Of a stretch of 64,000 nucleotides of DNA, positions 7,549-43,841 are shown piece by piece. Origin of the DNA: Chrysophaeum taylorii (lineage: Eukaryota > Sar > Pelagophyceae > Pelagomonadales > Pelagomonadaceae). The stretch covers positions 124,001 to 188,000 of the forward strand of contig JAQMWT010000024.1 in NCBI GenBank assembly GCA_029834535.1. The letters run 5' to 3'. The translations under genes were made by a program, and so were the position numbers. The notes under the pieces were generated by a model that saw only the letters and a program-made list of their open reading frames with translations, ran no database searches and had not been told where the DNA came from. Within the stretch, counting starts at the first letter, position 1. Every line of letters starts with the position of its first letter.

Positions 7549-8521
7549 CTACCGCGGCGGCGCCGGGGTCGAGAAGGTCGGGGGTGGTGTCGCGAAGGTC
7601 GGGGTCTCCGTGGGGTTTCTTCCGACTCGCCTTGGTGCTGCGCTGGGTGGCGGGACGGGCGTCGGCACCCCCGTCGGTGCTACTGTTGATTGGGACATGG
7701 CGAGCTCGTAGGCCCCCGCCTCGCCCGCGTCGAGACCCTCGATTTGAACGACGTAGCACCCGGGCTGCTCGAGGAGGATGCTCAGGAGGTCGCACGTCCC
7801 GTCCTGGATCTCGACCAGCGAGTACGCGCACGCGGTCGGAGGATCTGGGATAGCGCACGTCGTGTCCTCGCTCGTTACCCTGGAGTAGAGCCGGAGCACC
7901 GCGTCGAACGTCGCCTCGCAACGAAACGTCACAATAATGTCTTCTTCGGTGACGCTGAAGACGTGGAAATTGTCCGGCGCCTCGAAACCGAGGACGTCCC
8001 GCGCGTCGGCCGTCGACCCAAAGACAGCAGCAGCAGCAGCAGCAGCAGCAGCACTTGATGATGATGATGATGATGACAATAACGAGGTGATCGCGCTGTT
8101 AGAATCCTCGGCTAGAGCGGCCAGGTCGTCGGGGGTGCACGACGAGGACGACGACGACGACGAGGTCGCCTCGCGAACGGTACTCAACGTTAGCACGTAG
8201 GCACCCGCGTTTGCCTCGTAGCCCTCGACGTGCGCGACGTAGCAGCCAGCTTCGAGAGTTAAAGCGAGCTCGCTTTGGAGGGCGCAGAAGTCGTCGTTGC
8301 TGGCGAGCTCGGAGAGACCGTATTCCAAACAAGCAACGGTGTCGCTCTCGCATCTCCCGATGCCCTCTGCTTCGTACAGCCGCAGGAACGTGTCGTAGAC
8401 GGACCCGCACAAGCTCGCCGTCAGGACGGCCCGCTCCTCGATTTCGAAAAGAAAAAAATTGTCTGCCGCGGCGTTTCCGAGGGCGTCGCTCGCGGTCGAG
8501 GTGTCGCCCTCCAGCACGACC

Positions 8522-8554
<33 letters not shown>

Positions 8555-18954: not shown

Positions 18955-20997
18955 ATGCTGGAGAACGCGATCAAGGCCGCCAAGGCGGCTATCGAGCTGG
19001 AGCACAAGGGAAAGAGGGCGGAGGCGATTTCGAAGTATGTCGAGGCCGCCGACTGGCTGGTGCTGGTGATGAAAAGCGAGGGCGACGATGGTCGGCGCGC
19101 CAAGCTGCGGGAGCGTGCCGAAGAGTACGTCGCGTCGGCGGAGCGCCTGAACAAGGCACCGGCGCCGGTGGCCGCGCGGGCGGAGGTGTCGACGGCGGGG
19201 AATTATTTTAGTGCCGACGATAGGTTCAAGGCGGACGTGGAGCGGGCGAGGTCGTGGATCGCGACGCTGGAACGCAAGGGAGAGAAGTTCGAAGACCCGG
19301 ATTTTTCGACGCCGTTGCCAGGGCGGCGGCCTGCGGAGCTGGGGTGGGAGGAGCTGTTCGCCAACGGCGGGCCCCGGCCCGCGGACGTCGACCAGGGGGC
19401 TCTCGGAGATTGCTGGCTCCTGTCGAGCCTGTGCGTTCTGGCGGGTTTTCCCGAGCTCGTGCGGCGCCTCGTCGTGGGCGCGTCGAAGCGCGCGGGCGCT
19501 TACGTCGCGCGGCTGTGCTACGCCGGGGAGTGGCGTCTCGTGCTGATTGATGATCGTTTCCCGTGCAAGGACGGGAGGCCGGCGTTCGCCCGGTCGTCGG
19601 GGGCGTATTGGGTGCCCGTGCTGGAGAAGGCGGTCGCCAAGCTTTTTGGCAGCTATTCGGAGCTCGAGAACGGCACGGCCGCCGAGGCCCTCGGGGTGCT
19701 GACCGGGCTCCCCACCGAGACCATCGAGGAGCTCCACCTTATCGGGGACCCCTCGCGCCGCGATAGGGACGATATCCGCGACCTCGACGGGCTGTTCGCG
19801 GAGCTGAGCGCGGCGTTCGACGAGGGGTACATCGTGGCGGCGTCGTGCGGCCACGCGAGCCGACCCGAAGCCGAATACGCGCGCACGGGGCTCAAGTTTG
19901 CGCACGAATATGCCGTGCTGCGGGTAGTGAAAGTAGACGCCGCGCGTCTCGTTCAGCTCAGGAACCCGTGGGCCCGGGGCGAGTGGCGCGGACGCTGGAG
20001 CCGCCGCAGCCCGCAGTGGAAGACTGGAACCGGGGCCAAAGTGCTCGCGATCGACACCAATCACGCCATCGCCAAGGACGACGGCGTTTTTTGGATGCAG
20101 CTCGAGGATTTAGTTACTTTTTTTCACGAGCTCACCATCTGCCGGCTCCGCCGCAACTACCACCAGCACCGGCATCGCGTCGACGTGAAACCGCTGCTGT
20201 CGTCGCCGACGACCGCGTTCAGGATCGCGGGCCCGGCCAAAGTCGACGCGTGTCTGCTTCAAGCGACCGAACGCGGGAAAGTTCCAAAAGGGCACCACGT
20301 CATGGCCGACGTCTCCTTGATCGTGTTTCGGGCGCCCTCGAACGACGTGCGGACGTGGCGATTCCTCAAGACGACGCGAAGGGGCGCGCTCTCGCCCATA
20401 ATCGCTGCCGACTTCGACGCCGACGGCGGCTACGCGGTGCTTCCGCTCTGTTTCAATTGGCGCGTCCTCAAGCTCTCGGGCGTCCTGACGGCCGTCTTCT
20501 ACGCCTCGCGTCAGCTTGCCGTGTCGCGCCTCGACCTCGCTCCGAACGACGCGGCTCTCGCGCTGCGCGAGGCCGTCGTTAACGCGCGTCCGGCCCGAGA
20601 CCATTTTTTCTTCGACCTCGACGGCATACACCTGGTCGAGAACAGGCGCAGCGACGCCCGTCTCCACCTCACCCTCACCCTCGGTAGGTCAACCAACTGC
20701 GTATCCTCGCGCCACGGCGGCGTCCTCGACGACGCCCAGCCCGCGGGCGCCTACGCGACTAGGGACATCATCCCCCCCAACTCCTTCATGTTCGTCCTCT
20801 TCCGCGTCCCCTACCGACCCTCCTGGAGCGTCGAGGGCACCTCCCTCAAGTGGAAGTTTATTCCTTTTGTTGCAAACACTACAACAACAACAACAACGGG
20901 AGGAGGGCGCGACGACCACTATCCCCCAATAATTATCGAGCCGGCGAGCCTCCACTCGACCTTCCCGATCCCCCCCTATACCGCCTCCACGTCATGA
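18955..20997 (+). CDS. MIT-domain calpain-like cysteine protease (calpain-7/PalB type)
   Basis: It encodes 680 aa. Residues ~1-67 form a MIT three-helix domain (AIKAAKAAIELEHKG, EAISKYVEAADWL), which in relatives binds ESCRT-III tails. The calpain core follows, with its complete triad: Cys153 in GALGDCWLLSSL, His317 in GLKFAHEYAV and Asn337 in LVQLRNPWARGEW. After ~residue 400 come two calpain C2-like beta-sandwich domains (for example VMADVSLIVFRAPS and HLTLTLGRST). This order (MIT, protease, C2L, C2L) is that of calpain-7/PalB/Rim13, which act with ESCRT on membranes and lack EF-hands. The ATG follows aacag closely, so an upstream non-coding exon is possible. A run of ACA repeats encodes Thr near the C-terminus. 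Confidence 0.9.
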   Translation: MLENAIKAAKAAIELEHKGKRAEAISKYVEAADWLVLVMKSEGDDGRRAKLRERAEEYVASAERLNKAPAPVAARAEVSTAGNYFSADDRFKADVERARSWIATLERKGEKFEDPDFSTPLPGRRPAELGWEELFANGGPRPADVDQGALGDCWLLSSLCVLAGFPELVRRLVVGASKRAGAYVARLCYAGEWRLVLIDDRFPCKDGRPAFARSSGAYWVPVLEKAVAKLFGSYSELENGTAAEALGVLTGLPTETIEELHLIGDPSRRDRDDIRDLDGLFAELSAAFDEGYIVAASCGHASRPEAEYARTGLKFAHEYAVLRVVKVDAARLVQLRNPWARGEWRGRWSRRSPQWKTGTGAKVLAIDTNHAIAKDDGVFWMQLEDLVTFFHELTICRLRRNYHQHRHRVDVKPLLSSPTTAFRIAGPAKVDACLLQATERGKVPKGHHVMADVSLIVFRAPSNDVRTWRFLKTTRRGALSPIIAADFDADGGYAVLPLCFNWRVLKLSGVLTAVFYASRQLAVSRLDLAPNDAALALREAVVNARPARDHFFFDLDGIHLVENRRSDARLHLTLTLGRSTNCVSSRHGGVLDDAQPAGAYATRDIIPPNSFMFVLFRVPYRPSWSVEGTSLKWKFIPFVANTTTTTTTGGGRDDHYPPIIIEPASLHSTFPIPPYTASTS

Positions 20998-21173
20998 TTG
21001 ATGCAGCATGACTTTAGTAGTTAGGATGAAAAAGTTGAAGGTGGCAATTGGACCGAGGGCATCCATGCAACTTTTTTTACCTACATACACACCTTTGGTA
21101 TACCACACGTATCATCATCATCATCATCATCATAATAACCGTCGACAACAACGCATTTACTACTTTTACTAAT

Positions 21174-23834
21174 ATGGCTGCTGCTGCTGCTGCTGCTGCC
21201 GCCAAGGCGATGGCGCTCGAGAGCCCGACGACGACGACGACCAAGGAGGAGTCGATGTCGAGCCAGCCGTGGCTGTCGAGCCGGGACGTGGACACCTCAA
21301 AGCTGGGGACCTTGAAGGGTGTTTTCGTCCCTACCCTCCAGAACATTCTGGGCATCATCCTGTTCGTGCGCGTGCCCTTCATCGTCGGCCACGCGGGCGT
21401 CGGCCAGGCGCTGGCAATCGTCTGGCTCGCCTCTGCCACGACCGTGCTGACCTCGGTGTCGATGTCGGCCGTCGCGACAAACGGCGTGCCCCGCGGCGGC
21501 GGGTGCTACTCTATCGTCAAGAGCAGCCTCGGCGCTCCGTTCGGCGGCGTCACGGGCATCTTGCTCTTTTTGTCCAACACCTTCGGTGTGGCCATGTACG
21601 TCCTGGGCGCGGTCGAGGTGCTCGGGCGACGCTCCGCGTTCGAGGACGTCGACGAACGAGTGCTTGGATTGTCGATTTTGGCGGGCCTCGGCCTCGTGGT
21701 CTTCGTCGGCATCTCGTACATCGCGCGCTTCGCCATTGTCTTTTTGTCGGGCGTATTTCTGTCGATAGCATCGATCTGGCTCGGTGTTATCTTCCGAGGC
21801 GCGACCGACGCCGATCGCGCGGCCGCGGGCGTCTCGGGCTTTTCTGCCGGAAACTTGCGCCACAACTGGGGCCCAGGCTACCAGGACGGCTGGGACTTTG
21901 GGACGTGCCTGGCCGTCTTCTACCCCGCGGTCACCGATCCCCTCGCCGGATCCAACTTGTCGGGCGACCTCCGCGACCCGCAGGCGGCGATTCCAAAAGG
22001 CACGCTCGCGGCCGTCGCGCTCACCCTCGTCGTCTTCACGCTCCAGGTGGTCGTCGTCGCGGGCGCGAGCGGCGAGCGCCGCCCTCTGAGGTCCGACGAC
22101 GGCGGCGCCTTCGTCGTCGCCCTCGCGTGGCCTTTCTCGGAGATCGTCGAAGTTGGCATTCTAGTTTCCACGCTCGGCGCGGGCCTCCAGTCGCTCGCCG
22201 GCGCGCCCCGCTTGCTCGCGGCCATCGGCAAAGACCGCCTCTTGCCCGCCCTCGCTATTTTCGGCACCACCGGCGCCGGAGAACCTCGCCTCGCCCTCCT
22301 CGTCTGCGTCGTCCTCTCGGGCTGCTGCGTGATGCTCGGCAAGCTCGACGCCGTCGCGCCCTTCATCACCCTCTGGTTCCTCACGTGCTACGCCATCATC
22401 AACGGCACCTGTGCGCTCCAGGCCTACGACATGTCGCCCTCCTTCCGTCCGACCTTCAAGTACTACGACTGGCGGGCCTCGCTCCTCGGCGTCCTCTTGT
22501 GCGCCTGCATCATGTTCTCCATCCAGCCCCTCGAGGCCTGCGCGGCCCTCGCGCTCGCCGCCGCTCTCTACAAGTACATCGAGACCCTTCCCTCCTCCTC
22601 CGCCGAACAATTGAGATGCACGCCCCTCGGCGAAGAAGAAGACGAAAAAGACCCGCCACCGACACCACTACTACGAGGCGCCGCCGGCGGCGGGTCTCCT
22701 TTGGACAGCCCCGCGTCGCCGCCCACAGACTGGCGCGCGGGACGAAGATTCAAGCAAGTCCGGAACGCGATCCTGTCGCTCGAGTCCGGGGACCTCGAGT
22801 TCAAGTACTGGCGGCCGTTCGTCCTCTTTCTCTGCAAAATCGACGCCCGCGATGGCGCCTACGTCCCCCAAAAAGGTATGATAAATCTCGTCGCGCAACT
22901 CATGCGAAAGGGTCGCGGCCTCGCGCTCGTGAACGGCGTTCTCGTCGACGACCTCACCGAACGGACGGCCGCGACCGCGGACCGCGCGACGCGACGCCTC
23001 CAGGAGACGCTCCGAGACTACGGAGTAGAGGGCTTCGCCGACATCATCGTCGCGCCCAGTCTCGTCGCCGGACAGCGCATGCTTCTCCAGACGGCGGGCC
23101 TCGGCGCCTTTAGGCCCAACGCCCTTATGCTCGGATGGCCCGACGACAACGATCCCGACGCCTTTTATTCGATCTTGGACGACGCGAAGGCCATTGGCAA
23201 GACCACGTTCATCTGCAAAGCCTGTCACGACTTTCCAACCGAACCTGTCTCCGACTCGGGCCGGATCGACATATGGTGGATCTACCAGCTCTTTCCCGCG
23301 AACGGCCTCCTCCTCTTGCTCCCCTTTCTCCTGCGCAAATCCAAAGTCTGGAAGAACTCCACGCTTCGCCTCCTCGTCGTCTCGGACGACCTCGGCGAAG
23401 ACGACCCGGATATCAACGCCGCACTTCGTCTCATGCTCCAAGCCGGCGGCGTCAAGGCCGAGTGCAAGATCCTCAACGTCGAGATCAAAGACGCCCCGCG
23501 CTACGCCCGCCGCGCTACCATGTCCTCCACCTCCTCGAAATCCACCGACGCCGGCCCCCGCAAACCCCCGCCGCCCTCGAATGGTGGTGCTGCTGCTGCT
23601 TCTTCTGGACTCCCGCAGGTCACCTCCGCCACCTGGGACTCTCCCTCCAAACTCACCACGCTCGTCGCCGACTACTCCAAGACAGCGGACCTCGTCGTCA
23701 TCCCCCTGCCTGACCGTATCGCCGGTCAGTCCGCGACGGACTGGATAAACGCCGTCGACACCCTCATCGAGCCCCTTGCGAGAGTCATCCTCGTCCGCGA
23801 GTCTGGGCAGGAAAAGGTCCAGTTCTTCCAGTAG
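21174..23834 (+). CDS. SLC12-family cation-chloride cotransporter
   Basis: It encodes 886 aa from the ATG at 21174; an upstream in-frame ATG at 21048 would add a poly-Ile run made by (ATC)n and is less likely. About 12 membrane segments span residues ~55-500, starting at GVFVPTLQNILGIILFVRVPFIVG, the signature first helix of the family. The NLSGDLRDPQAAIPKGTL stretch is the conserved ion-binding/loop motif of KCC/NKCC proteins. A long cytosolic C-terminal domain (~560-886) with KFKYWRP-like and LMLGWP-like blocks follows. It carries out electroneutral K+ (or Na+) and Cl- symport, probably for volume or chloride control. Which ions it takes cannot be told from sequence. The N-terminus is Ala- and Thr-rich because of triplet repeats. 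Confidence 0.92.
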   Translation: MAAAAAAAAAKAMALESPTTTTTKEESMSSQPWLSSRDVDTSKLGTLKGVFVPTLQNILGIILFVRVPFIVGHAGVGQALAIVWLASATTVLTSVSMSAVATNGVPRGGGCYSIVKSSLGAPFGGVTGILLFLSNTFGVAMYVLGAVEVLGRRSAFEDVDERVLGLSILAGLGLVVFVGISYIARFAIVFLSGVFLSIASIWLGVIFRGATDADRAAAGVSGFSAGNLRHNWGPGYQDGWDFGTCLAVFYPAVTDPLAGSNLSGDLRDPQAAIPKGTLAAVALTLVVFTLQVVVVAGASGERRPLRSDDGGAFVVALAWPFSEIVEVGILVSTLGAGLQSLAGAPRLLAAIGKDRLLPALAIFGTTGAGEPRLALLVCVVLSGCCVMLGKLDAVAPFITLWFLTCYAIINGTCALQAYDMSPSFRPTFKYYDWRASLLGVLLCACIMFSIQPLEACAALALAAALYKYIETLPSSSAEQLRCTPLGEEEDEKDPPPTPLLRGAAGGGSPLDSPASPPTDWRAGRRFKQVRNAILSLESGDLEFKYWRPFVLFLCKIDARDGAYVPQKGMINLVAQLMRKGRGLALVNGVLVDDLTERTAATADRATRRLQETLRDYGVEGFADIIVAPSLVAGQRMLLQTAGLGAFRPNALMLGWPDDNDPDAFYSILDDAKAIGKTTFICKACHDFPTEPVSDSGRIDIWWIYQLFPANGLLLLLPFLLRKSKVWKNSTLRLLVVSDDLGEDDPDINAALRLMLQAGGVKAECKILNVEIKDAPRYARRATMSSTSSKSTDAGPRKPPPPSNGGAAAASSGLPQVTSATWDSPSKLTTLVADYSKTADLVVIPLPDRIAGQSATDWINAVDTLIEPLARVILVRESGQEKVQFFQ

Positions 23835-28711: not shown

Positions 28712-30868
28712 ATGTTGCGGCGTGTGCGCGACGACTCCTCGTCGGCGGCGGCCGCGTCGTCGTCGTCCGACTACTACCTGGATGATGTCCCGTTCCAAAC
28801 AACCTCCGTCTTCTTCGTCGAGGACGACGACGACGACGACGAGGAGAACGAGTTTTTTGAGGACGAGTGCTGTCCTCTGCTTCAACCCGACTCGCGGTTC
28901 CACTTTTGGTGGGACGTCGCGCAGGGCGCCGCCCTCTGCTACGTCGCGACAATGGTCCCCGTGCGCATCGCCTTCGACTTCCCGGCGATGGGCATCATGC
29001 TCTGGCTGGAGTTTATGATCGACATTCACTTTATCTTGGACGTCGGGCTCAACTTCTTCACTACCATCCACAAGCGAATCGGGTTCGAGGTCAAGGTCGT
29101 CACCAACCGCCGCCAGATCGCCCTCCATTACGTCAAGACCTGGTTTTGCATCGACCTCGTCGCCTGCCTGCCGCTAGGCTACGTCGCCATGTTTCTCGCG
29201 AAAAAACCGTGGAAGGCTATCGCGTGCGCCTTCGCGCCGCCCTCGGGCTGCGGCCGCCCCGTCGAGCCGCACCGCGGCATCCAGAGCGGCTACGTCGTGC
29301 GCCTCGTCAAGCTCGTCCGCATCTTCCGGCTCCTCAAGCTGATGAGATTGGCCCGGCTCTCGCGTCTCGTCGACAAATACCAGGACGAGCTCATTTACGT
29401 GATGGGCTTCATCTCGGGCTCCAAGCTCATCTTCACGCTCATTTACGCATCCCACTGGATGGGCTGCGCCTACGCGCTCGTCTTCAAGTTTGACGACGAA
29501 AAAACTGTATCGGAGCGGTACGTCGCGTCGATCTATTACTCCATGCAGACGATCACGACCGTGGGCTACGGCGACATGGTCTCCGACGAACGCGGCGGCT
29601 CGACCATCAAGGCACGCTTGTTTGCGATCGTGTGCATGGGCATCGGCGGCCTCATGTTCGGCTGGCTCATCACCAACGTCCTCAATGCCCTCTCTCCCGA
29701 ATCCCACGAGAGAAAACACAAGGAACTCCTGCACGGGATCATGGGCTACCTGCGCGTCAACCGCGTCCCGCTCTCGACGTCGCGGAGGGTCCTGACGCAC
29801 GTCAGGAAGCAAAATAGCCGCCAAAACGCCGACCGCGAAATGCTGAGCCATCTGCCGCACCAACTCCGCGTCGAAATTTTTGATTTTCTCTACAGACAGA
29901 ACCTCGTTTCCGTCCCGCTCTTCCACGGCGCTACCACAAAATTCATCAACCATATCTGCGTCCGGGTCATGCCGATCACCTTCCTCGCCGGTGGCCATAT
30001 CTATAGCCGGGGCGACGTCGCAGAGGACGGCCTCTACATCCTGAGCGCGGGCGACGTTGTCCTCCGATACTCCCAAAATGCCCGACCCCGTCTGCCGCCG
30101 CCGCCGCCGCCGCCGCAGATAACCACGCCGAGCCCTGCAAACTCGACAATCTCCGATGCTGCTCCTTTGAACTCAAAACACTTCACAAAAAAAGCCCCGC
30201 TGACGCCGGGTCAAACGCTTCGCCGGCGCCGCCGCGAGTCCGTCACCATCACCACCGCCACCCTTACCGCCGGCGACGTTCTCGGCGAGGCGGTCGTCTT
30301 CGGCCACGCGCGTCGGACAGAGGACGCAATCGCACGAACCACGGCCTCCCTCATGATGATCCCGACGACCTCGGTACAGGCCGCCCTCGAGCTCGATCCT
30401 AACGTCGCTCGACGCCTCTTCAAGCTCTTCATCGACCGACTCTCGAACGACCCTCGCACCTTCGCCGAGGTCCAAGCCGCAATCGACGTCGACGCGATCG
30501 CCCACGCCCTCGACTCCGACAACCCCCAGCACCTCGCCGACGTCGTCGTCGCCTACCGGCGTCCTTCGGTAAGTCGCGACGACCAGCAACAACAACCACC
30601 ACCACCACCGCCACAAACCCGTTTCTTCGCCAACGCGACGACCACGCCCGTGACCGCGAAGAGCGTGCTCCACACCGTACATGCGCAGCACGCGGAGCTT
30701 ATTAATCTCATCGCAAAGCTCGGGGCCGATATCGCCGACCTCAAGGCGCGCTCTCGACGACCAGTCAGTTCTTCCTCCACTTCTTCTGAGGACCCACCGT
30801 TTCAAACCCCAGCAACTCCGAATCACAATACTCCCCGGGCAGCGACCTACCTCACCGTCGGGAGGTAG
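28712..30868 (+). CDS. CNG/EAG-type K+ channel with split cyclic-nucleotide-binding domain
   Basis: It encodes 718 aa. An acidic N-terminus leads into six TM segments. S4 is rich in basic residues (VVRLVKLVRIFRLLKLMRL, ~195-213), so it should sense voltage. The pore filter is canonical, TITTVGYGD (280-288), so it is K+ selective. A C-linker (SPESHERKHKEL..) and a cyclic-nucleotide-binding fold follow. The fold is interrupted after LSAGDVVLRYS by a ~70-residue Pro/Ser/Thr and basic insert, then resumes at LTAGDVLGEAVVFG. The GE of the phosphate cassette is present; the following Arg pair reads HARRTED, so cyclic-nucleotide binding is possible but not sure. The C-terminal tail is a low-complexity region with a short helical segment. 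Confidence 0.9.
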   Translation: MLRRVRDDSSSAAAASSSSDYYLDDVPFQTTSVFFVEDDDDDDEENEFFEDECCPLLQPDSRFHFWWDVAQGAALCYVATMVPVRIAFDFPAMGIMLWLEFMIDIHFILDVGLNFFTTIHKRIGFEVKVVTNRRQIALHYVKTWFCIDLVACLPLGYVAMFLAKKPWKAIACAFAPPSGCGRPVEPHRGIQSGYVVRLVKLVRIFRLLKLMRLARLSRLVDKYQDELIYVMGFISGSKLIFTLIYASHWMGCAYALVFKFDDEKTVSERYVASIYYSMQTITTVGYGDMVSDERGGSTIKARLFAIVCMGIGGLMFGWLITNVLNALSPESHERKHKELLHGIMGYLRVNRVPLSTSRRVLTHVRKQNSRQNADREMLSHLPHQLRVEIFDFLYRQNLVSVPLFHGATTKFINHICVRVMPITFLAGGHIYSRGDVAEDGLYILSAGDVVLRYSQNARPRLPPPPPPPQITTPSPANSTISDAAPLNSKHFTKKAPLTPGQTLRRRRRESVTITTATLTAGDVLGEAVVFGHARRTEDAIARTTASLMMIPTTSVQAALELDPNVARRLFKLFIDRLSNDPRTFAEVQAAIDVDAIAHALDSDNPQHLADVVVAYRRPSVSRDDQQQQPPPPPPQTRFFANATTTPVTAKSVLHTVHAQHAELINLIAKLGADIADLKARSRRPVSSSSTSSEDPPFQTPATPNHNTPRAATYLTVGR

Positions 30869-31663: not shown

Positions 31664-34600
31664 ATGGAGGGGGGAGAGGAGGAGGAGGAGGATGAGTCAA
31701 GCCGCGGGGTTGGTGCCCGGAGCACGGTGGACGACTTTGGCGACGAGGACGGTTTGAAAATCGTGGAATTCTTAACGGCGTTTGAGAATCAAGAGCCAAG
31801 TGTCGAGGAGCAACTTCTCTCAGCATCGCGCAGCGACTCTCAGCATCGCGCGCTTGTGGTTGAGGACGGGTTGGCGGTGCCGCGGGAGGAGGTGAAGAAT
31901 AAGTCAACGGCGGAAGAGGAGGAGGAGGAGACGCGAGAGGTCGAGGAGACGGCCGCGCCGCCCTCGAAGAGGCCAAGGTTTGGCGCCGCCAAGGTCGCAC
32001 CCCAAGAGATTGACGAGTACCTCGGCGACCACGGGTCTCTTCTTTTTCGGCAAAACGACGAGTCGGCCGCCGGCGCGAAGAACGACGAGGCGACGGCGTT
32101 TTTTCGTCGGGCAAAACGACGCGGGCGCGAAATTTTAGGAATGGTCGGCCAGGTCGTCGGCGGCGCTTTCTTCAAAATACTGCATCCGAGAGCGATGCTC
32201 CACCCCGAGCAGAAGAGAATATTGGTGAAGAACCCCGCGCAACGGATCTCGCGACGGAGGCACCTCGAGCACGCGGGGTTCGCGCACGTGCGGTTCGACC
32301 TCAAGCTCCGGTACGAGGAGGAAGTGTCGAGCTGGTGGGAGAAACCGATCGACCACGAGGGTGACTTTGGACGCGCGTGGTTCAACGCGCGCGTCGCCCT
32401 CCAAATTTACTCCGTGTTCCGATTTCCGTACAGGCTCGCGTTCGGGCCGTCGCTGAAAGGAAGCGTGCCGCTCCGGCACGCGGTGGGGGGGGGGTCATTC
32501 GTTTTGCGCGAGGTCGCCGACTATTACTCGGACCTCTTGCCCGACTTGTTCTTTCTCGCGGACATCTGGGTAAACATGTTCTCGACGTTTATACCGCTCG
32601 ACTCGGACGAGGTCGTGACCGACGCGGCCGAGATTAGAAAAAGATACGCGAGAAGGGAAAAGATACTGAAGACGTCGATCCCGAGTCTCTGGCTCGACAT
32701 GGCGGCCATTCTCCCACTCCACGTCGCCTGGAACATCCCGGGAGTCCCGGAGCTCGCGATCCAAATCGCGAGCGTCCCGCGACTCGCGCGCGTCGTCAAG
32801 CTCTTCGAATGGTTTGGCGAGATCGAGTTCGACGCGCACGTCGATTTCCGCGTGGTCGCCCTCTGCAAGTTCTTGCTCATGATGTTTGGGATGGCCCACT
32901 GGGTCGGGTGTTTGTGGTGGCTGTTCGCTCGACTCCGGAACTTCGACGAAACGACGTGGGTCGCCAAGTTCAACTTTGCCTTCAACCGCCACGCCGACGA
33001 TTCGACCTCGCGAGTTTCGAGGTATGATGTTCCCGGAGACAGCTGGCGCAACTACCAGCACGCCTTGTACTGGGGCTTCAATTCGATGACAGCGTTTGGC
33101 TACTCGGACGTCATCCCCGACAACGGACCAGAATGCGTGTTCGCGACGACCCTGTGTCTCGTCCAGCTCATGTACAACGCCTACATCCTCGGGACGCTCT
33201 TTCGGTGCGCGCTCAAGCGCGACGAAAAGTCTGAAACATACCACAAGACGATGAAGTACATCGAAAATTACGCCGACGCGAGGCGCCTGCCCTCGGAGCT
33301 CGTCGCGCGCATGAAACGCTACATTCAGTTCGTCGCGAGCCGCGAGACGGCCTCGCACGAACACGTCCTCCAGCGCATGCCACCAACGCTCATCGCGAAG
33401 ATCGCCAAGTGGCAACACCGGAAGCTCCTAGAGTCCACAAAAATATTCAAGGGCGTGCCCGAGCAGTATCTCACGCTCCTGCTCGTTAAACTCCGCTCGA
33501 GGTACCTCCAGCGCGGCGACATTCTCTTCAAGTACGGCGACATGGCCCACGAGCTCTGCTTTATCCAGTCGGGAATCATCGAAGAATTCGAAGACGACGC
33601 GCGACGCCGCCCCATTCGCTCCGTCTCCGAGGGCATCCTCGGCGAGCTCGCCTTTTTCATGGGCATCAGCCAGCCCTGCTGCGTCTCGGCCTCGACGCAG
33701 ACCGACGTCGTCCTCCAGAGCATATCCTCAGAGGACTACGAAGATCTCCTCGCCTCCTACGCCGAGGGACATTCGATCACCACCGAGAACATAATGGCCG
33801 AGTTCAATTTGAGCCGCAAGGACGACGACGCCGCCGCCGCCGACGCTAAAAAAAAAGACACCACCACCACCACCGCCACCACAACCGCCAACGACCCGGG
33901 GGCGAGCGGCGGCGACGACCACCGCGAGCGCGTCCGACTCTCGCTCGCGGCAACCCTCAAGCGACGCCAGGACGACGCGCTCTCTGTCGCGGTCGACGCG
34001 GCCTCGGAGGGCGACCTCGAGACGATACGTCGCATCGTCCAGCAGGGACTCGACGTCAACACGGGCGACTACGACGGCCGCACGATGCTCCACCTCGCCG
34101 CGGCCGAAGGTAACGTCAAAGTTGCCCGGCTTTTGATAGACGAAGGCGCGGACGTTGCGTGTTTTCCCGAGGACGACCACGAGCTCCTCACCTCCCAGGG
34201 CTTCATGTCGCTTTCCCAGCTCGAAGCCTGCGACAACCCCCTGCTCCTCGACTTCGCGACCTACGATCCGCGCACCGAGCACCTTCTCTACGAAAAACCC
34301 CTCCATCTCGTCGTCAACCCGCCCGCCGAGAATCGCAAACTCGTCGCCTTTAGCCTCGACGGCGATCCCTCGATCAGTCTCTGCGTGACGCAGGACCACG
34401 ACATGTTCGTCAGACTCGGCGACGCCGACCTTTTTGCCAAAATCCCCGCCGCAGACCTCCTCCTTCTTCCACCACCACCACCAACAACAACAACAACGAC
34501 CGACAGCAACGCCGTCGTTACGATGCTCGGCTACGCGCGCGAGGGCGTCTCGTTTCCTTCGGAATCGCCTTCTTCTTCTTCTTCTTCTTCTTCTTCTAAA

Positions 34601-37600
34601 ATCGACGACCTCTTGCAGAGGCTGGGCCTCTCGACCGACCAGCAAAGAGCCGCGTTTCTCCGGCTCTCTGGCTTCTGGCTCTTTGATTGTGGCGGCGGTG
34701 ATAGCCTCGACAACATGGACGACGACGACGTCGTTAGCTTCAAAGCGCACGACGACAGGTCGGATCACTTTCTGAGCGAGAACTTGAAGGAGGTCGGCGT
34801 CGAGCACCGGCGGCGGCGGCATAAAGACGCCACTCGTCGTCGTCGTCGTCGTCCTGATTGCAGCAGCAGCACTTATGAGGTCCTCGACCCGAGATGGTCC
34901 AAGAAGTGCTTCGAACGCGACCTTCTGTGGGACGTCGTCGCGCGGCTCGGGAAGGACGACGCGCGCCACGTGCTTTGTAGGAGCGTCGCCGCCGCCGCTT
35001 CCGACGACGACAATGGTAAAAGAAGAAGTTTTTTTTCGACGCGGTGTCCGAGGCTCCGGGACGAGATCGTCCAGCTCGCGCTGCACGCGGGCTACGCCGC
35101 GTCGTTCGAGCAACGCGAAGCAAGTTGGAGGGTAGACTTGAGCGACGACCGAGCTTTCGCCGAGCCAAAGCTGCGGCGAGGCACGCTCGACATCGCGCCC
35201 GCGACCTCTTTTTCTTCCATAGTCGGATTGAGAAGAAGAAAAAGGACGTGGTGTGCTCGGATGCCGCGCGGGTTCGTCGTGGTGCGGCGCGTCGCGACCG
35301 ACGCTTCGACGGGCCGCGTCGTGCGCGCCTCGCGGGCCACCATTCAAGGAAATTGCGTGGATAGGTGGAAGCAGTCGCCTTTGCACGACGCGATTCAAAA
35401 CGACCACCAGCAGGTCGCGCAGCTCCTGGCGACGCACGGAGCCGACCTCGTCTACGACGATCCCGCGGGCGTTTTGTGCAACCTCGTCGCCTCCGAGGAC
35501 TTCGACGGGCTCAAGAACAACATCACCTTCGGCGCCCCGCCAAACGCGGCCGACTACGACGGCCGCACCGCCCTGCACCTCGCGGCCTTTGAGGGCAACT
35601 CGAACTTTATTTCGTGGTTGATCCAATCCAAGGCGAACGTGAACGTGATGGATCGATGGGGAAATACGCCGCTGGTAGACGCGGTCAAAAACCTCCACGA
35701 ACTCCCGGCAAAGATATTGTTCGAGTCGGGGGCTTCGCTGACGCACGACTACGCGTGCTCGCTCCTGTGCGACGCCGCGTTGCGCGGGGACGCGCCCTTT
35801 TTGCAACTCTTGCACGAGTGCGGCACGCACGTCCAGGACTGCGACTACGACCAGCGCACGGCGCTGCATCTGGCGGCTGCCGAGGGCCAGCTCGTGTCCG
35901 TCGACTTTTTGATCTTCGCCAAGGCCGACGTCACCTTCGAGGACCGCTGGGGTAACTCGCCCATCGACGACGCGATCCGGTGCGGCCACTTGGAGGTCGC
36001 GCGGCTGCTTCAGGGCGTCGGAGGCAAACCCAAGGTCTCGTTGACCGAATCCCAAGAGGCCAACCTCAAAGCCGTCGAGCTGACGGTCGTCAGGGAGCAA
36101 ATTCGAACAAAGGTCGACGCGCAGCAAAAGACGAGACGATTGAAGCCCCACATCCGCGATCTCGTGAAATTAGTCCAGCGCGAACTCGCGACGGCCGACG
36201 TTCAGTTCGCGCGCAAAATCGAAAAGCTCGAAAAGCTCTCCGCCAACGCGATGCACAAGGGCGGCCACGAGGCGATGGTCGCGTCCAACAACGCGACGCC
36301 AGACGAGGCCTTTAGCATGCCGGAACTCATGCTCGACGACGCCGACAACGCCGCTCGCCAGGCGGGCAAGTTGCAAGCCGAGTCGGACTGCTCGGACGAC
36401 GACGTCGCCGTTGGCGGCGGCGGCGGAAATTACGTCCCCAAAGGATTTGCGATGCGCCGCTTTTTGGGCCTCGACGACCTCGACAAGGACGACGGCAAAC
36501 CGCCGCCGCCCTTCACGTCGGTGTGCGGAGAAGATGAGGACGAGTTCTTTGCTTCTGACGGCGGCGGCGGCGACGACGACGTCGTCGTCGGAGCGGCAGC
36601 GGCAACCGCAACCGCAACCGCAACCGCCGCCGGGCCGAGCAGCAGCATCAAGGAGCAGAAACCCAAGTCGTCGTCGTCGTCGGCGGCAGCAGCAGCAGGA
36701 CGGCGGTTATCGGATGCCGACGATGAGGAGCGGCGACGACGGCGGTTCTCGGAAGGGAGCCATTGCAGCGGCGGCGGCGGCCTTGTCGTCGTCGTCGAGA
36801 GAGACGAGGAGAAGTGTGGTCCGGCGTCGCGGGTCCGCGAGTCTCTGGATACGAGGCCTTTCGCTGGAAAACAAGAGGAAGAGGAGGCGGGGCTGCACCC
36901 TCTGGTGGTGCTGGAGCGAAACACGATCGCGAACTCGGGTCGCACTGGTGTCGACGCGAAAGCTCTGGCCGCGCAGCAATCACAAAAATTCACGTCGTTC
37001 AACCAAATCATCCTGTTGTTCCCGACGATCGAGAAGGGATTCGAACTCCTGCGGTCTCGGTTCGAGGAGCGCAAGGTGAAGGCGATTTCGAAGGACCAGA
37101 TGATCCCGTTTTTGCGCGAAGACCTCGAGATGGCCGACGTGACGACGAAGGAGGTCGGGGACCTGTTTTTGACGATGGAGGGAGAAGGCGCGGCGGGCGG
37201 CGGTCCCGCGGAATCGCTCGACTTTCTGCAGCTCGTGCTCGCTCCGACGTTTCCCAAGTTGGTGGAAAGAACGTCGGAGGACGCGCGGCGCGAGGGGCGC
37301 GAGAAGATCTACTGCGACTCGCTGAAAGCGTCGTTCTCGATCATAAACGCGGCCTTCGAGCTGCTGGATACGACGGGGAAAGGCCAGATATCGATCCAAG
37401 AATTGAAGAACGCCGTGGGGGGCGAGCTGAAATTCGGGGACGAGCTCGTGACCTTGTTCGCGCGCCAGCTGGTGATTCGGCGCTTGGATTTTATGGTCTC
37501 TTTGCTGCGGTGGCTCTCGATCATAGACGAGGACGAGCTCGACACGCTCGACGACGCCGAGTGCGAGGCGGCGGGGGTCATCCGAAGAACAATGGCTGCC

Positions 37601-40600
37601 GGAGGAGGTGGTCCTCCCGAGTCGGGCGAGCCAAAACCATCATCAAACGACAAAAAAAACCGCGGCAGCAGCTTGGTGGACGCGGCGGCGGCGCGAGGAG
37701 GAACGAACGGGATTTTACAACAACGACGAGCAAACAGTAGTAGTGGCCGCGAGGACGACATCGCGAGTCGCGGGCTCGCGTTGGTTGCGCGACGCGTGGG
37801 AAACGCCGCCGCCGCCGCGAAGACGGCGGCTCCGGCGTCGGGGGGCGCGACAACTTACGGTAGTAGTAGTAGTAGTAGTCTAGCGAACGAGTTCGGTCTC
37901 GCCGTGCGATTCGCGTCGATGATCGCGAGAGAACGACGATCGGTGTTGGCGTTCGTGGAAGAGATGTGGATAACGCTGCGGTTCATGATGCAGCCGCGCA
38001 AGTACCGCGACGTCGAGGTGTGGCTCGTGTCGACGTGTTCGAAGGAGAACGTCGTGTACGTGTTCAACGACATCGACCGCGACTTCTCGGGGACGATCGA
38101 CGTCGACGAGTTCGAGACGTTCGTCGATAGGACGGCCAAGTCCGCGATCCCGAGATATAAGGTGTACGAGGCGTTCCACAAACTGTCGGACGACGGGGTG
38201 ATCACGCTCGAAACCTTCAAGGAGATGTGGGAACTGTGCTCGAAAAAACTCGACGGGATATTTTTTCTCGAGAGTTCGCGATTGTTCAGCGTCGCGCGGA
38301 TCATGATTATCCCCGGCAGCTTCTACGATTGGGCCCTCGACATGCTTCAGATGGTGAGCGCTGTCTACGCGTGCGCGACCGTGCCCTACGATATCGCGTT
38401 TTACGAGACGCGGTCCCTCGTGATGCGGACGGCGGTGCTGTTGCCTATGTACCTGTCGGACGGCGTGCTGTGGCTGAGCATCTCGCGGCGGTTTCTGACC
38501 GCGTACAGAAACAAGCACCAGAAGCTCGTCACGAGTCTCGCGAAGATCCGCAAGCACTACTACAAGCACGATCTCGTCTACGACCTCGCCTCGGCGCTGC
38601 CGTTGGACCTGGTCTTGTGGCTGGCGAAACGACCGCCGTTTCGAGGGATCTTGTGGAGTCGACTTCCGCGACTCTTGAGGGTGCGCGATGTCTACAGGTA
38701 CCTCCGCGCTCGACGATCCGAGCTCAACGAGATCCGGGGGGAGCTGGATTGGCTGTGCGTCACCTTCGCGCTCTGCCTCCACCTCCTCGCGTGCTTCTGG
38801 CACTACTTGACGAGCAACGAGAGAAGCGACAACTACCAGCTGAGGTACCGCGGCGGCTCGGCCCCCTACGACGGCTACGGCTCCTTTCAGTCCGTGGCGG
38901 GGGAGGGTACGTCTGCGGCGGCGGCGGCGGCGGCGTCAAAAGACAGCAGCAGCGGCGGCGGCGTCGAGACGTACTTTTTGTCGTTGTATTGGGTGACGGC
39001 CGTGCTGACGGCGATGGGCGCCGGCGATCTGCATCCCGCGACGGGCGAAGAAAGGTGGTTCACCATCGTGCTGATGGTCCTGAACTTGAGCGTCCTCGCG
39101 TACGTCCTGGGGATCGTGTCGTCGTTGTTCATGAGCGCCGACGAGCGCCTCGTCAAGCTGCGCGAGGAGATCGCCGCGTCGAACGCGTTCATAGAAGCCA
39201 GGAATCTCCCGAAGACGCTCGAGGACGAAATCCGGTCTCTAAGCGACTTTCGCGCGTCGTCCTCGAGACTCTCGAGCGGCGGCGAGTCCGACGGCAACGA
39301 CGTGTTTCGCCAGCTTTCGAAATCGCTCCAGATTGAAGTCGCGAGCCACATATCCCGCGGATTGATAGAGCAGTCGCGATCTTTCAAAAATACGGGCACG
39401 AATTTCCTCGACCAACTTTCGACAATGCTCGGCGAGGTCACCGTGCTGCCAGAGACCGTGCTCTTCCGCAGGTCGGACCAGGCAAAGACCCTATATCTCG
39501 TCTCGAGCGGCCGCGTCGACCTCTTCGAAGACGATTTCGAATCATCGTCGACCTTCAACAACAACAACAACAACAACGCGAATCACGACGACGCCACCTC
39601 GCAAAACCTCGTCTCGGTCCTTCCCGGGGTCGCCGTCGCCCCGATCCCTTTTTTCTTCAACGTCAGGCACACGTGTTCGGCGCGGTCCTATTCCGTTGCC
39701 TCGAGTCGCCTCTTCGCGCTCGATCGCGACTCGTATCGACGCCTCATCAAGCTCTATCCCGACGAGGAGGAGACGATCAGCCACAACGTCCTGGACGACG
39801 AGGAGGCGGGCAAGTCGTCGGGCTCGTCGGTGGGGGGCAGCTCGGTGGCCTCGGGCTCCTCGGGAAAAGGGGGCGGGGGTTCTTCGCAGGCGTCGGGAAA
39901 TTCGAGCGGCCCCGACGATGGTGCCTCCGCGGCGGGATCGGCCGTTGGCTCTGCCGCGGGGGGCAGCAGCAGCCAAGTGATCGACGGCGGCGGCGGCGGC
40001 GACGACGCCATCGAGACAATCCACAAGGCGATCCAAAAGGCGAGGTCAAAAAAAGAAAAGGAGCGCGTTGCCGCGCGGTGCGCGGCCGCGTCCGAAGGTC
40101 GACTCGAAGACCTCAAGCAGATCGTCGAGCAGAGTCGCACGACCTCGGTCGATGCGGGCGACTACGACCTGCGAACTCCGATGCACCTCGCCGCCTCGGA
40201 GGGACACAAAAATGTTGTTCTCTGGCTGCTCGAAAACGGAGCCTCGGTTAACGTCCGCGATCGTTTCGACAACACGCCCATGCACGATGCGCTTCGACAT
40301 CGCCACGACACGATCGTCGGGATATTGAGGGAGGCGGGCGCCCAGCTCGAGCTCACCGAGGCCGACACGGCCGGCGCCTTGTGTCAGGCGGCCTTCAAGA
40401 ACGACCTCGTCGAGATTCGGAGACTCGTAGAGAACCACGCGGATCCAAACTGCTTTCCCGTGGACGACCACCAGCTCCTCACGAACCGGGGCTTCCTCTT
40501 TCTCGACGACGTCTTGTCCTACCAAGGCGACGACCTCCTCTTCGCGAGCTACGACGCCGACTCGGCACAAATCATCTACGAGCGCCCGATCCGCGTCAAC

Positions 40601-43600
40601 GCGAGCACCTCGCGCACCTTCGAGATGGTACAATTCGAGGATAGCCGCGTTTTCGCTGGGAACGACGCTCCTCCTCCTCCGCAAGGAACGGCCCCGCGGT
40701 GGTCCCTCGTCGCGACGCCCGATCACGACGTCTTCGCGAGGGTCGTCGTCGTGGCTGGAGAAGAAGATAACCACCACCACCACCAGCAGACCAGCGGCGG
40801 CGGCGGCGGCGGCGGCGGCTTAACAAAGCGCAAGGCCCGGGAGCTCGTGATGCAACCCGCCGCCGACGCCGCTGCTGCTGCTGCTGCTAAGACGGTCGTC
40901 ACCTTCCTCTCCCGCGCGACGAGGGGCGTCGTGGTCCCGGAAGAAGAAGAAGCAAAGGCTTTGGCGGCGGCGGCGGGTCGTCGCAATAACGATGACTTCT
41001 TCGTGTTCGCCACCAAGTTTGGCATGGTCGACGCGCCAAAGAAGAAGACGGCCTTTCTCGAGCTCTACGGCTTCTGGCTCGCCAACGGGTTATTCGAGCA
41101 CGGCGCCAATCGTCGTCGCGGCGTTTTGAAGTTTTATGAAAAGAAGAGGTGAGAGTTTTCGAGATTAGATTTTGGATCGCGCCCTATTCATCATCATCTC
41201 TCGCAGGATCAGCGACTACGAATTCGTGAGATCACGCCTGGTGGCGCTCGACGTGACGTGTTGGCACACCTTTCCGAGCAACGAGTGGTGCATCTCTGAT
41301 CCCGCTTGGACCGAGCTATTTCTCGTCGACGACGCCGGGATGGGTAGTAGGAATAGTGCTTCCCGCGGCGCGATCAAAGCCGCGGCGTGCGGTCTCGAGT
41401 CAACGCAGAAGCAAGTCTACCAGGACCTTCGTGAGCAACTGAGAGCCAGCAAATCTTTGTCGCGCGTGCATATCTACGATCCTACGGCGCCTCAATTTCT
41501 TCGCGAAATTCTCGGTCGCGACGCTTACCCGAGAGTCGTCGGACGTCTGGTCGATCCTCGCGTCCATTATTTGGAACAAGTCGAGCAAACGATCACCGCG
41601 CAGCTTGCCGCCCGCGGTCTCCTGCCGCCATTCCATAGCTCCGTCCCGATTGCGGTCGGTATCGCGTGGTGTAATATTCAGCTTGGGGCTTTCGACGACG
41701 ACGACGACGATAAACAACTCGAGGAGCGCGTCGGAATCATCGCTTCGAGTCTGTGGCAGCCATTCCGCGCCGAGTTCAATCGCGTGTTCGAAACAAATTT
41801 TGGTGGTGGTGGTGGTGGTATTCACGCCGAGCAGGAGCTCGTCTTTGACCTCGACGCTGCCCGCGCCGCCTTGGGGATTAGTTCAAAGACGACGACAGCA
41901 GTCTCGCGGGATCCTGGTTCTGAGGACCAACGAGAAAGCAGCCTCCATCGGTCCACGGAAAACCACTTGGACACCAGCAGCACCAATTTATTTTCGGTCG
42001 GCAAAAAATCCCTGTTTCCCTGGGTGCTCCGCCTCGATCAATTTGAATGTCAGAGCGTCATTCGCGGCCTATTCGCGGCGGCAGGAAAAGAAGACGTCGA
42101 AGCAAAACTCGGAGAGAACGTGCTATACATCGCATCGTCTGCGAGGTTCCGCGACGAGGTGGTTCATCTTTGCTTGCATGCTGGCTACTCGGCGCGGGTA
42201 GTGAGCAAAAGCCACGGTTGTTGGTGCTGGCAAGTTGCGTACGCGTCCGAGCTGAGCCAAAACGAGGAGCCGACGGTTCGGGCGGAACGAGACGTCAAGC
42301 TCGTCTCGTACGCTGGTCGCGTGTGGTGTGCGAGCATGCCGCACGGCTTCGTGATCGTGCGACGCGTACATCGCAACCCGGAGGACGGAGTCATCACCAC
42401 AGCCTCCGTTCCAACCATCCAAGGAAACTCTGGCGATTACGACCACAGGACTGCCCTTCATATCGCGGCCTCGGAGGGCCACGTCGACATCATAAAATAT
42501 CTCCTAAGTCGGCACGCGGACGTCAACTGCGTCGACCGTACGGGCGGGACGCCGCTGAGCGACGCGATCCGCCACAAGAGGCGCGAAGCCCAAAAGGTAC
42601 TTCGCGACGCGGGGGCGACGGTGCAGCACGACGACGACGCCGCCGCCGAGCTCTGTCGACTCGCCTCGGAGGGCGAGCTCGACGAACTCCGCGTGCTGGT
42701 CGACAACGGTCTCGACGTCAACCTCGGCGATTATGATTCTAGGAGAGCCCTGCACCTCGCGTGCTGCGAAGAACGGCTCGCGGTCGTCGAGTATTTGCTC
42801 TCGCGTCCGGAGATCGACGTCAACGTGGTCGACCGCTTCGGAGGCACGCCGCTCGAGGACGCAATCCGCGAAGGTCGACACACGGTGGCCCTGTTGCTCC
42901 AAAAGCACGGGGCGCTGCGCGCGCATCACCCCGACCTCAAGCCAAAGTACGATCGAATCGAGCAAGTCCGCCGCGAGCGCCGCGCGGCGCACGAGAAACT
43001 CGAGGTGGCACAGGAGGCCGAGCACACGGCCGTCGCAGCCCTCGCCGACACGCTCCGCGACCTCGTCAACCCGCTCTCCTCCCAAAACAAGCAACTCCAA
43101 GAGCAGATGCAGGCGCTGATACTGAACGCGCACCCTAAAAATTGGCGATCGCGAAAAGCGATCGAGGCCGGTCCCAAGCTCAACGTCGAGGACTGCTGCA
43201 GCGACGTCTTTTTGGGGGCGTTCCGGAAATTCATGAAGCACGAGGAACACGCCGAACACATGCTCGACTGCTATCTCGCCTGCACGACCTTCGAGGCGGA
43301 CCCGAGCTTCGAAGCAGTCGAGGAATTGTTGACGAACTATGTAGGGAAAGGCGCACACCGCGAAATCGTCACCGCGCCGAAATTCGTCGTGCCCGTTCAG
43401 ACTGCGTTGGAAAAGCAAGGACGCGCGCGACGCCCGCCGCCGACGCTCTTAAATGCCATCATCACCGAATTGGAGACTAAACTCGGCCCGTACCTCCAGC
43501 GATTCTACCGCTCCTCGCAATTCAAGGAGGTCATCAACTCAAAACTCGGTCGCATCTGGCGCATCACCAGCCTCTGCCGCATCGTCGGGGACTCGGCCGA

Positions 43601-43841
43601 CGACATGATCACCAACGTCCTCGCGAATACCAAAAAAATTGCCGCGGGAGACGCAATCACCCACATCTTCGGCGAACGTAACGAGCGTGTCGCACAATTG
43701 AACGCCGCCATCGACAACCACCTCGACAAGCTCACATCGATCAAGAAGTTTGTCATCGAGCTTTCTATTGGCCACAAGGTCTTGTACGAGAGATCCCAGC
43801 GCCGGCGTCGCATCCTCGGCGGCGTCGGCGGTGACGCCTAG
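31664..43841 (+). CDS. Giant tandem cNMP-type ion channel, ankyrin, EF-hand and RGS protein with two inteins
   Basis: The exons are 31664-41148 and 41207-43841, giving a 4,039-aa precursor. Domains in order: acidic N-terminus; 6TM channel module 1 (~240-545); cyclic-nucleotide-binding fold 1 (~590-705); ankyrin repeats (~770-1480) interrupted by intein 1 (833-1230); coiled coil; Ser/Gly/Ala low-complexity linker; EF-hands (FELLDTTGKGQISIQE; FNDIDRDFSGTIDVDEF); 6TM module 2 (~2210-2490); binding fold 2 (~2575-2690); ankyrin repeats (~2800-3750) interrupted by intein 2 (2930-3569); coiled coil; RGS domain. If both inteins splice, a 3,001-aa protein results. It should sit in a membrane and couple voltage, Ca2+ and G-protein signals to ion flow. 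One open frame of 9.5 kb argues against a pseudogene. Domain bounds are approximate. Confidence 0.88.
32373..33770 (+). other. Channel module 1: 6TM, pore and binding fold
   Basis: S4 is weakly charged (SVPRLARVVKLFEWF). The pore helix and filter read NSMTAFGYSD (473-482), where canonical channels have TVGYGD. S6 is followed by a C-linker typical of CNG/KAT channels (YIENYADARRLPSELVARMK). The binding fold keeps RGDILFKYGDMAHELCFIQSG and LGELAFF. The usual Arg-x-Ala of the phosphate cassette reads QPCCVSAS, so nucleotide binding is doubtful. Confidence 0.8.
34160..35353 (+). other. Intein 1 in the first ankyrin array (398 aa)
   Basis: Residues 833-1230. It starts at Cys1 (CFPEDDHELLTSQGF, block A). 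Block B is VTQDHDMF with Thr77 and His80 (intein numbering). A LAGLIDADG-type core follows: FLRLSGFWLFDCGGGD (block C, from ~1000) and FFSTRCPRLRDEIVQLALHAGYAA, the strand-helix typical of DOD homing endonucleases. Block F reads RTWCARMPRGFVVVRR. The end is ATIQGN, then extein Cys (+1). The C-terminal Asn and +1 Cys needed for splicing are present; the penultimate His is Gly. Splicing joins GADVA to CVDRWKQSPLHDAI, a complete ankyrin repeat that aligns with the later repeat KADVTFEDRWGNSPIDDAI. A bare Hedgehog-type Hint domain would not leave a resumed repeat like this. Confidence 0.88.
38300..39750 (+). other. Channel module 2: 6TM, pore and binding fold
   Basis: S4 is Arg-rich (LPRLLRVRDVYRYLRARR). 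A Gly/Ser/Ala insert lies in the turret before the pore helix. The filter reads TAMGAGD (2449-2455): the Tyr of GYG is Ala. The binding fold keeps the beta-roll (VLPETVLFRRSDQAKTLYLV) but lacks a GE-x-A-x(n)-R-x-A cassette, so it probably does not bind cyclic nucleotides. Confidence 0.78.
40451..42428 (+). other. Intein 2 in the second ankyrin array (640 aa, contains an intron)
   Basis: Residues 2930-3569 of the precursor, 1,920 coding nt after removal of the intron at 41149-41206. It starts CFPVDDHQLLTNRGF (block A). Block B is ATPDHDVF (Thr89, His92). The endonuclease core includes FLELYGFWLANG (block C), KKR-ISDYEFVRSRL across the splice junction, EWCISDPAWTELFL, RLDQFECQSVIRGLFAAAG (block E) and IASSARFRDEVVHLCLHAGY. 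A ~170-aa insert between blocks C and E is unassigned. Block F is RVWCASMPHGFVIVRR and the end is PTIQGN before extein Ser (+1). Splicing joins HADPN to SGDYDHRTALHIAASEGH, a normal ankyrin repeat. It resembles intein 1 block by block, so the two are paralogues. Confidence 0.87.
41149..41206 (+). other. Spliceosomal intron inside intein 2, 58 nt
   Basis: It begins gtgaga and ends ctctcgcag. Removal splits an Arg codon (ag|g) and joins two frames into a continuous endonuclease-core sequence. Unspliced, translation stops two codons into the intron. No other intron is needed in the gene. Confidence 0.85.
43180..43560 (+). other. RGS domain at the C-terminus of the giant channel
   Basis: The order FRKFMKHEEHAEHMLDCYLA, then YVGKGAHREIVTAP, then LGPYLQRFYRSSQF matches the helices of the RGS fold (F-x-x-F, the E-x-L-x-F/Y helix, and the final L-x-x-x-x-Y-x-x-F-x-x-S). 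RGS domains speed GTP hydrolysis by G-alpha subunits, so the channel could end or read a G-protein signal. The assignment is by pattern only. Confidence 0.65.

Follow-up and report, generated by a model that had tools for sequence, protein, structure and literature searches.

A putative protein-splicing intein in an ankyrin repeat of a eukaryotic ion channel, with related segments across the same genome

Within a 64,000-nucleotide stretch of the Chrysophaeum taylorii genome (contig JAQMWT010000024.1, positions 124,001 to 188,000; hereafter the window), a 398-residue segment interrupts an ankyrin repeat in the predicted product of a gene for a tandem double ion channel. An earlier note on this DNA, made from its letters alone, read the segment as an intein. 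A 2018 survey of eukaryotes describes nuclear inteins as scarce and largely limited to a small set of housekeeping genes, chiefly fungal (PMC5784728). Is the segment, here called intein 1, a protein-splicing intein in the ankyrin repeat of a eukaryotic channel? Judging from sequence comparison, we put the probability that it is at roughly 87%. This reading rests on a family of related segments elsewhere in the genome – on the conserved hosts that they interrupt, on a curated profile match to the member in protein phosphatase 5 (PP5), and on paralogues that lack an insert.

Boundaries, motifs and the rebuilt repeat

The segment maps exactly to the place the earlier note had given it, and the landmarks named there – Cys1, a TQDH block B, a block F-like stretch and a C-terminal Asn before Cys – are all present. 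Member counts in the following list refer to the aligned family described in the next section.

34160..35353, forward strand: intein 1, 398 aa, host residues 833-1230, in frame, ahead of a Cys
34160..34192, forward strand: CFPEDDHELLT, which we take to be block A, with Cys1 (Cys1 in 13 of 13 members)
34388..34399, forward strand: block B TQDH, intein residues 77-80 (TxxH in 11 of the 11 members that reach block B; the count excludes two Walker B-site N parts, cut ahead of it)
34652..34699, forward strand: degenerate LAGLIDADG-like motif 1, AFLRLSGFWLFDCGGG (a relative reads AFLRLYGFWLGDGSLC)
34964..35011, forward strand: degenerate LAGLIDADG-like motif 2, RHVLCRSVAAAASDDD (a relative reads RAILRGYCMADGWKVG)
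35249..35290, forward strand: block F-like stretch WCARMPRGFVVVRR (Trp-Cys invariant, 13 of 13 members)
35339..35353, forward strand: block G TIQGN with the C-terminal Asn (Asn in 13 of 13; penultimate Gly in 12 and His in one)
35354..35356, forward strand: the +1 residue after intein 1, Cys (Cys in 12 of 13 members, Ser in one)

The C-terminal stretch reads WCARMPRGFVVVRR...ATIQGN, followed by Cys. Across intein 1 the reading frame contains no stop and the other two forward frames contain 7 and 11; because one antisense frame is equally open, this openness is weak evidence alone. Between the terminal blocks the earlier note had also reported a LAGLIDADG-type core, a term that proves overstated. 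Two motif-like stretches, chosen by eye and with a regular expression, can be read there, but no profile match to intein 1 was obtained, and in place of the two motifs with acidic residues that mark a LAGLIDADG enzyme both are degenerate. The endonuclease of intein 1, to judge from these residues, now looks dead. The segment also contains poly-Ser and poly-Pro stretches.

Joining the flanks without intein 1 yields GADVA-CVDRWKQSPLHDAI and restores the ankyrin repeat on paper, as had been claimed. Consistent with this reconstruction, an uninterrupted paralogous channel (L048; C21:157034-157447) reads ...GADVSAVDRFGRTPLMEAV... and aligns to the joined flanks gap-free at the junction. A second paralogue, L050, aligns with a one-residue gap immediately before the junction. 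The comparison with homologous channels that the earlier note proposed thus found two without the insert. A sister repeat in the same channel, HADVNCVDR, has a natural Cys at the +1 position.

A family of related segments in unrelated hosts

The family was sought in the organism's own assembly (70.8 Mb, 697 contigs), and its counts are lower bounds. Intein 1 as query gave at least 34 matches on nine contigs, one relative at E 1.3e-15; queries with other members returned the same contigs plus two rows at E 0.42 and 0.83. Reading the flanks resolved these into at least 13 inteins and one stop-bearing kinesin remnant, at nine sites in six kinds of host (a slash marks the insertion point):

Channel, one gene: two ankyrin repeats
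CDC27: a tetratricopeptide repeat; a 220-aa copy without an endonuclease core
UBR protein: the UBR box
PP5: SAPNY/CD
Dynein linker: HMRK/CFDN
Dynein after the P-loop: VFN/C, in three genes
Dynein Walker B: GAWG/CFDEFNR, in two genes
Kinesin: LGN/C in the gene on contig C110; in that on C330 the C flank is clear and the start ambiguous

Several of these loci have complex structures. The start of the C330 kinesin intein is ambiguous because two intein N-termini (L035 3587 and 4291) precede one C-terminus, perhaps through partial duplication. The remnant, on C552 (L041 about 4900-5120), consists of an intein C-terminus with stops beside kinesin sequence and looks like a dying copy. Two dynein-2-like genes, on C111 (L033) and C183 (L036), carry two inteins each with a 24-residue extein between them, and a spliceosomal intron at the Walker B site seems to stop one base short of the intein.

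Consistent with the interruption of conserved hosts, the joined flanks of the seven non-channel sites, combined into six queries, found counterparts among solved proteins (PDB). Matches ran across the junctions for dynein-2 (E 1.2e-78, a single query taking in two sites), PP5 (E 1.7e-61), kinesin (KIF19, E 9.8e-40, the query combining the C110 N flank with the C330 C flank), the dynein linker (E 3.7e-23) and the UBR box (PRT6, E 1.4e-18); the CDC27 match (E 3.5e-66) is known from a table row over residues 1-189 only. Paralogues with empty sites were also found. For kinesin, 40 of 42 rows span the site, the only exceptions being the occupied genes; among 20 dynein rows, 7 span both sites, two of these 7 with TGA. 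Because these insert-free paralogues are present, empty and filled sites coexist in the genome.

Intein 1 itself groups with the family. Scored against profiles of 11 other members, from which both inteins of the window were omitted, it reached 68.2 bits in its N part and 92.6 bits in its C part; among 1000 shuffled versions of intein 1 the highest scores were 3.7 and 8.5 bits, and the inteinless host reached 0.1 bits (N) with nothing listed (C). Every aligned family member has Cys1, the block F-region Trp-Cys and the terminal Asn. A tree of the 13 members over 186 columns gives support of 100 to the two C111/C183 pairs and of 15-71 elsewhere.

The second family member in the window lies further along the same channel gene.

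40451..42428, forward strand: intein 2, in another ankyrin repeat of the channel; 640 aa after intron removal, ending GN, then Ser
41149..41206, forward strand: predicted 58-nt GT-AG spliceosomal intron within intein 2, whose removal gives one stop-free frame to 43841

Intein 2 is intact once this intron is removed, and the locus would represent an intron inside an intein. Both inteins sit in a common repeat register (ADVA/CVD and ADPN/SGD). Copying of one into the other is not claimed, because the 42-nt joined sequences of the two sites have only 16 positions in common and the two inteins are not sisters in the tree (weak support).

Curated profiles and rival explanations

The earlier note had proposed searching residues 833-1230 with Hint/intein and LAGLIDADG profiles and had said that an empty result would count against the intein. 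That result was obtained: no Pfam or NCBIfam intein, Hint or LAGLIDADG profile matches intein 1, and the C-terminal intein profile matches 0 of the 13 members. Two of the 13 N parts match TIGR01445 (intein_Nterm), with only the PP5 member above the cut-off. Searched alone, this member scores 24.8 bits against a cut-off of 24.5, over all 83 positions; in the genome scan it scores 24.4 bits, or 24.6 with its neighbours. The CDC27 member scores 18.4 bits, below the cut-off.

Two canonical inteins were recognised by their flanks in the same genome, one in the RNA polymerase second-largest subunit (L043 1501-3204, C398) and one in RtcB (L045 1501-2931, C548). The TIGR01445 score of the PP5 member equals that of the RNA polymerase intein. 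The RtcB intein reaches only 14.4 bits and is unlisted at E 1; because a canonical intein thus also falls below the cut-off, the missing match to intein 1 is a weak refuter.

Searches with the whole family gave a similar picture. Its consensus produced two sub-cut-off Pfam matches, LAGLIDADG_3 (E 0.027, at the second motif) standing behind the unrelated DUF3701 (E 0.0093), and no NCBIfam match. One of six members gave a LAGLIDADG match (E 0.085), and in 10 of 10 members with both motifs readable an acidic residue is absent, by eye, from one or both. PDB searches with the family profile and consensus returned nothing, which says little because a profile of the two canonical inteins retrieved 12 rows and no intein. 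Profile-profile comparison of the family with these two inteins gave no signal. When five canonical inteins were used, the N profile scored above 100 of 100 column-shuffled controls, but with block A of the family paired with block B of the canonical inteins, and the C score was reached by 16 of 100 controls; we do not use this comparison as support.

These empty or equivocal searches weigh against the intein reading, as do several properties of the members themselves. Only 6 of the 13 are single intact open reading frames, counting the C330 kinesin copy from its second N-terminus and including the coreless CDC27 copy. The P-loop-site dynein inteins each hold one mid-intein in-frame stop (L033 5003, L036 4705, L037 9174), reflecting an intron or decay, and neither the C110 copy nor either of the two Walker B members keeps to one open frame, introns being presumed. 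The penultimate His that is usual, though not universal, in inteins is absent from intein 1, as from all but one member. In favour of the intein reading, on the other hand, the ratio of nonsynonymous to synonymous substitution rates between C111 and C183 is well below 1: 0.07 over the first 60 codons of the P-loop-site intein, similar to the 0.05-0.11 of the exteins, and 0.23-0.39 in the other intein stretches. These values come from one dynein gene pair by the NG86 method without a significance test, and they concern relatives of intein 1 only.

Weighing both sides, we conclude that the segments constitute a divergent family of putative inteins with decayed endonucleases, intein 1 included. 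The closest competitor is that intein 1 entered as an intein and now splices poorly, the channel either working or failing with the insert in place. Its 35-45% identity to the other 12 members, its second-longest tip branch in the tree, the poly-Ser and poly-Pro stretches, the degenerate endonuclease motifs and the penultimate Gly would all fit such decay. Against this, Cys1, TxxH, Trp-Cys, Asn and Cys+1 are all retained in an intact open reading frame, the penultimate Gly is common to the family, and a viral partial intein is reported to end in TGN (PMC1635734). We consider decay of intein 1 improbable, while any one family member may have reached a non-splicing state.

A cleaving Hint domain, like those of Hog or bacterial-intein-like proteins, would instead cut the channel into two parts without joining them. 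Hog and Vint Hint domains are reported to be spread among protists (PMC2362128). A Hog domain is a C-terminal autoprocessing domain that follows a signalling part, however, and the insert is internal with exteins on both sides. The family's inserts also lie at conserved sites within single folded repeats and motor domains, with terminal Asn and Cys or Ser at +1 throughout, and a cut without joining would disrupt the motor domain of kinesin and the P-loop region of dynein, all of which makes this explanation very unlikely.

Excision of the segment from the mRNA as an intron has next to nothing in its favour beyond the presence of spliceosomal introns in the genome, including the one predicted inside intein 2: GT-AG ends at cuts equivalent to exact excision occur in 0 of 10 members tested (of 13), none of the in-frame GT/GC-AG pairs within 24 nt restores the repeat around intein 1, and the segment is coding and conserved. 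RNA-level removal of intein 1 is therefore rejected as highly improbable. An ordinary conserved domain of the channel family is just as hard to credit, for although no profile match to intein 1 contradicts it, related segments occur in unrelated proteins and the paralogous channels L048 and L050 lack the segment.

Host channel, proposed splicing and known systems

Pfam matches and frame analysis define the host as follows.

31664..43841, forward strand: host gene, tandem double ion channel with cyclic-nucleotide-binding, ankyrin, EF-hand and RGS-like regions
31664-41148 and 41207-43841, forward strand: host exons after removal of the predicted intron
32525..33193, forward strand: first Ion_trans domain (PF00520, residues 288-510)
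33500..33760, forward strand: first cyclic-nucleotide-binding domain (PF00027, residues 613-699)
33974..34159, forward strand: N-extein, ankyrin repeats to ...LLIDEGADVA (Ank_2/Ank_4, residues 771-831)
38336..39145, forward strand: second Ion_trans domain (PF00520)

The forward-strand open reading frame 31664..41152 encodes 3162 aa. With the intron removed, the channel precursor comprises 4039 aa with 0 internal stops, and 3001 aa once both inteins are taken out. Two host matches lie below their Pfam cut-offs: RGS (22.5 bits against 23.9) and a second cyclic-nucleotide-binding domain (20.3 against 27.5). The neighbouring gene at 28712-30868 encodes a single ion channel with a cyclic-nucleotide-binding domain, for which no ankyrin or intein matches are listed. 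Other window genes identified by Pfam (subtilase, calpain with an MIT domain, SLC12-type permease, DOT1 and JmjC) occupy 7552-10824 (reverse strand), 18955-20994, 21048-23831, 53583-54770 and 56096-57442.

If intein 1 splices, the channel mRNA would be translated straight through the segment, whose Hint-type ends would fold together. Cys1, helped by the block B TxxH, would attack the peptide bond upstream; the acyl group would be transferred to Cys+1, the C-terminal Asn would cyclise, and the halves of the ankyrin repeat would be joined as ...GADVA-CVDRWKQSPLHDAI... We infer this reaction and its efficiency from known intein chemistry. The family presumably spread within the genome through homing by LAGLIDADG endonucleases, and paralogous dynein and kinesin genes carry copies at matching sites. 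Intein 1 is probably now inherited vertically, because its endonuclease looks dead, and probably retained because any imprecise deletion would harm the host.

No relatives of the family were found in viral, phage and prokaryote collections by scans seeded with short exact peptide patterns, which can miss distant relatives, and none in a viral-contig scan with the canonical RNA polymerase intein. The same assembly contains 71 chlorophyll-binding protein matches, one of which has fucoxanthin chlorophyll a/c proteins among its solved counterparts, as well as dynein-2 and axonemal-type dyneins; together these point to an alga that has flagella and chlorophyll c.

A more speculative proposal, which we think unlikely, is that one intein clade spread through the nuclear genome and that its splicing, through Cys1 and the invariant block F Cys, acts as a shared post-translational switch, for example redox or metal dependent, that delays maturation of the hosts together. 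Under that same doubtful proposal, the clade would have come to occupy active sites, repeats and nucleotide-binding positions, its hosts being an ion channel, an N-degron E3, a phosphatase, a cell-cycle subunit and the motors of flagella. For the Prp8 intein, splicing has been tested under oxidant, copper and zinc (PMC6805012).

The occurrence of 13 related, mostly profile-invisible copies at nine sites in one photosynthetic eukaryote suggests that families of this type may have escaped surveys, and that a nuclear genome can be colonised by inteins. With a channel, motors and a phosphatase as hosts, conditional splicing becomes open to testing in the signalling and motility of eukaryotes, and intein 1 and the 220-aa CDC27 copy are short enough for direct testing.

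How does this family compare with known systems? The commonest nuclear hosts in the 2018 survey are Prp8, VMA1, RNA polymerase subunits, ThrRS, GLT, CHS and eIF5B, and its example of several inteins per genome is one fungus with three (PMC5784728). The present family shares with eukaryotic nuclear inteins its in-frame conserved sites, Cys1, TxxH, terminal Asn, Cys or Ser at +1, variable LAGLIDADG core and mini-intein versions. It differs in its hosts (channel, dynein, kinesin, PP5, UBR E3 and CDC27), in that intein profiles miss most members, and in having 13 related copies in one genome. Fungal GLT and CHS inteins are likewise related to each other although their nuclear host genes, within one genome, are not (PMC5784728), but they occupy two host genes rather than nine sites in six host kinds.

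The earlier note knew of no intein in a channel or an ankyrin repeat. The first part needs amending: an intein was tentatively proposed in oomycete PKDRR B, also a eukaryotic ion-channel-type protein, to explain an anomalous apparent mass, its authors stating that many canonical features are absent (PMC7399828). By that published description it is set apart from the present family, with HDS where the family has GN before Cys or Ser. The second part stands, in that a literature search, mainly of journal articles, found no published intein in an ankyrin repeat, nor in dynein or kinesin; that search did not name PP5, UBR or CDC27. The partial intein of an Emiliania huxleyi virus, described as similar to RPB2-b inteins, shares the Gly before the terminal Asn (PMC1635734) but has an RNA polymerase host, and the likeness comes without a demonstrated sequence link to the family. 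Class 3 inteins are similar in that a family Cys lies, by eye, near block F position 4, the place of their Cys F:4; they are reported to need no N-terminal nucleophile (PMC7765530), whereas Cys1 is invariant here. The proposed chemistry is of a known kind, and as far as checked the family, its hosts and its copy number are new.

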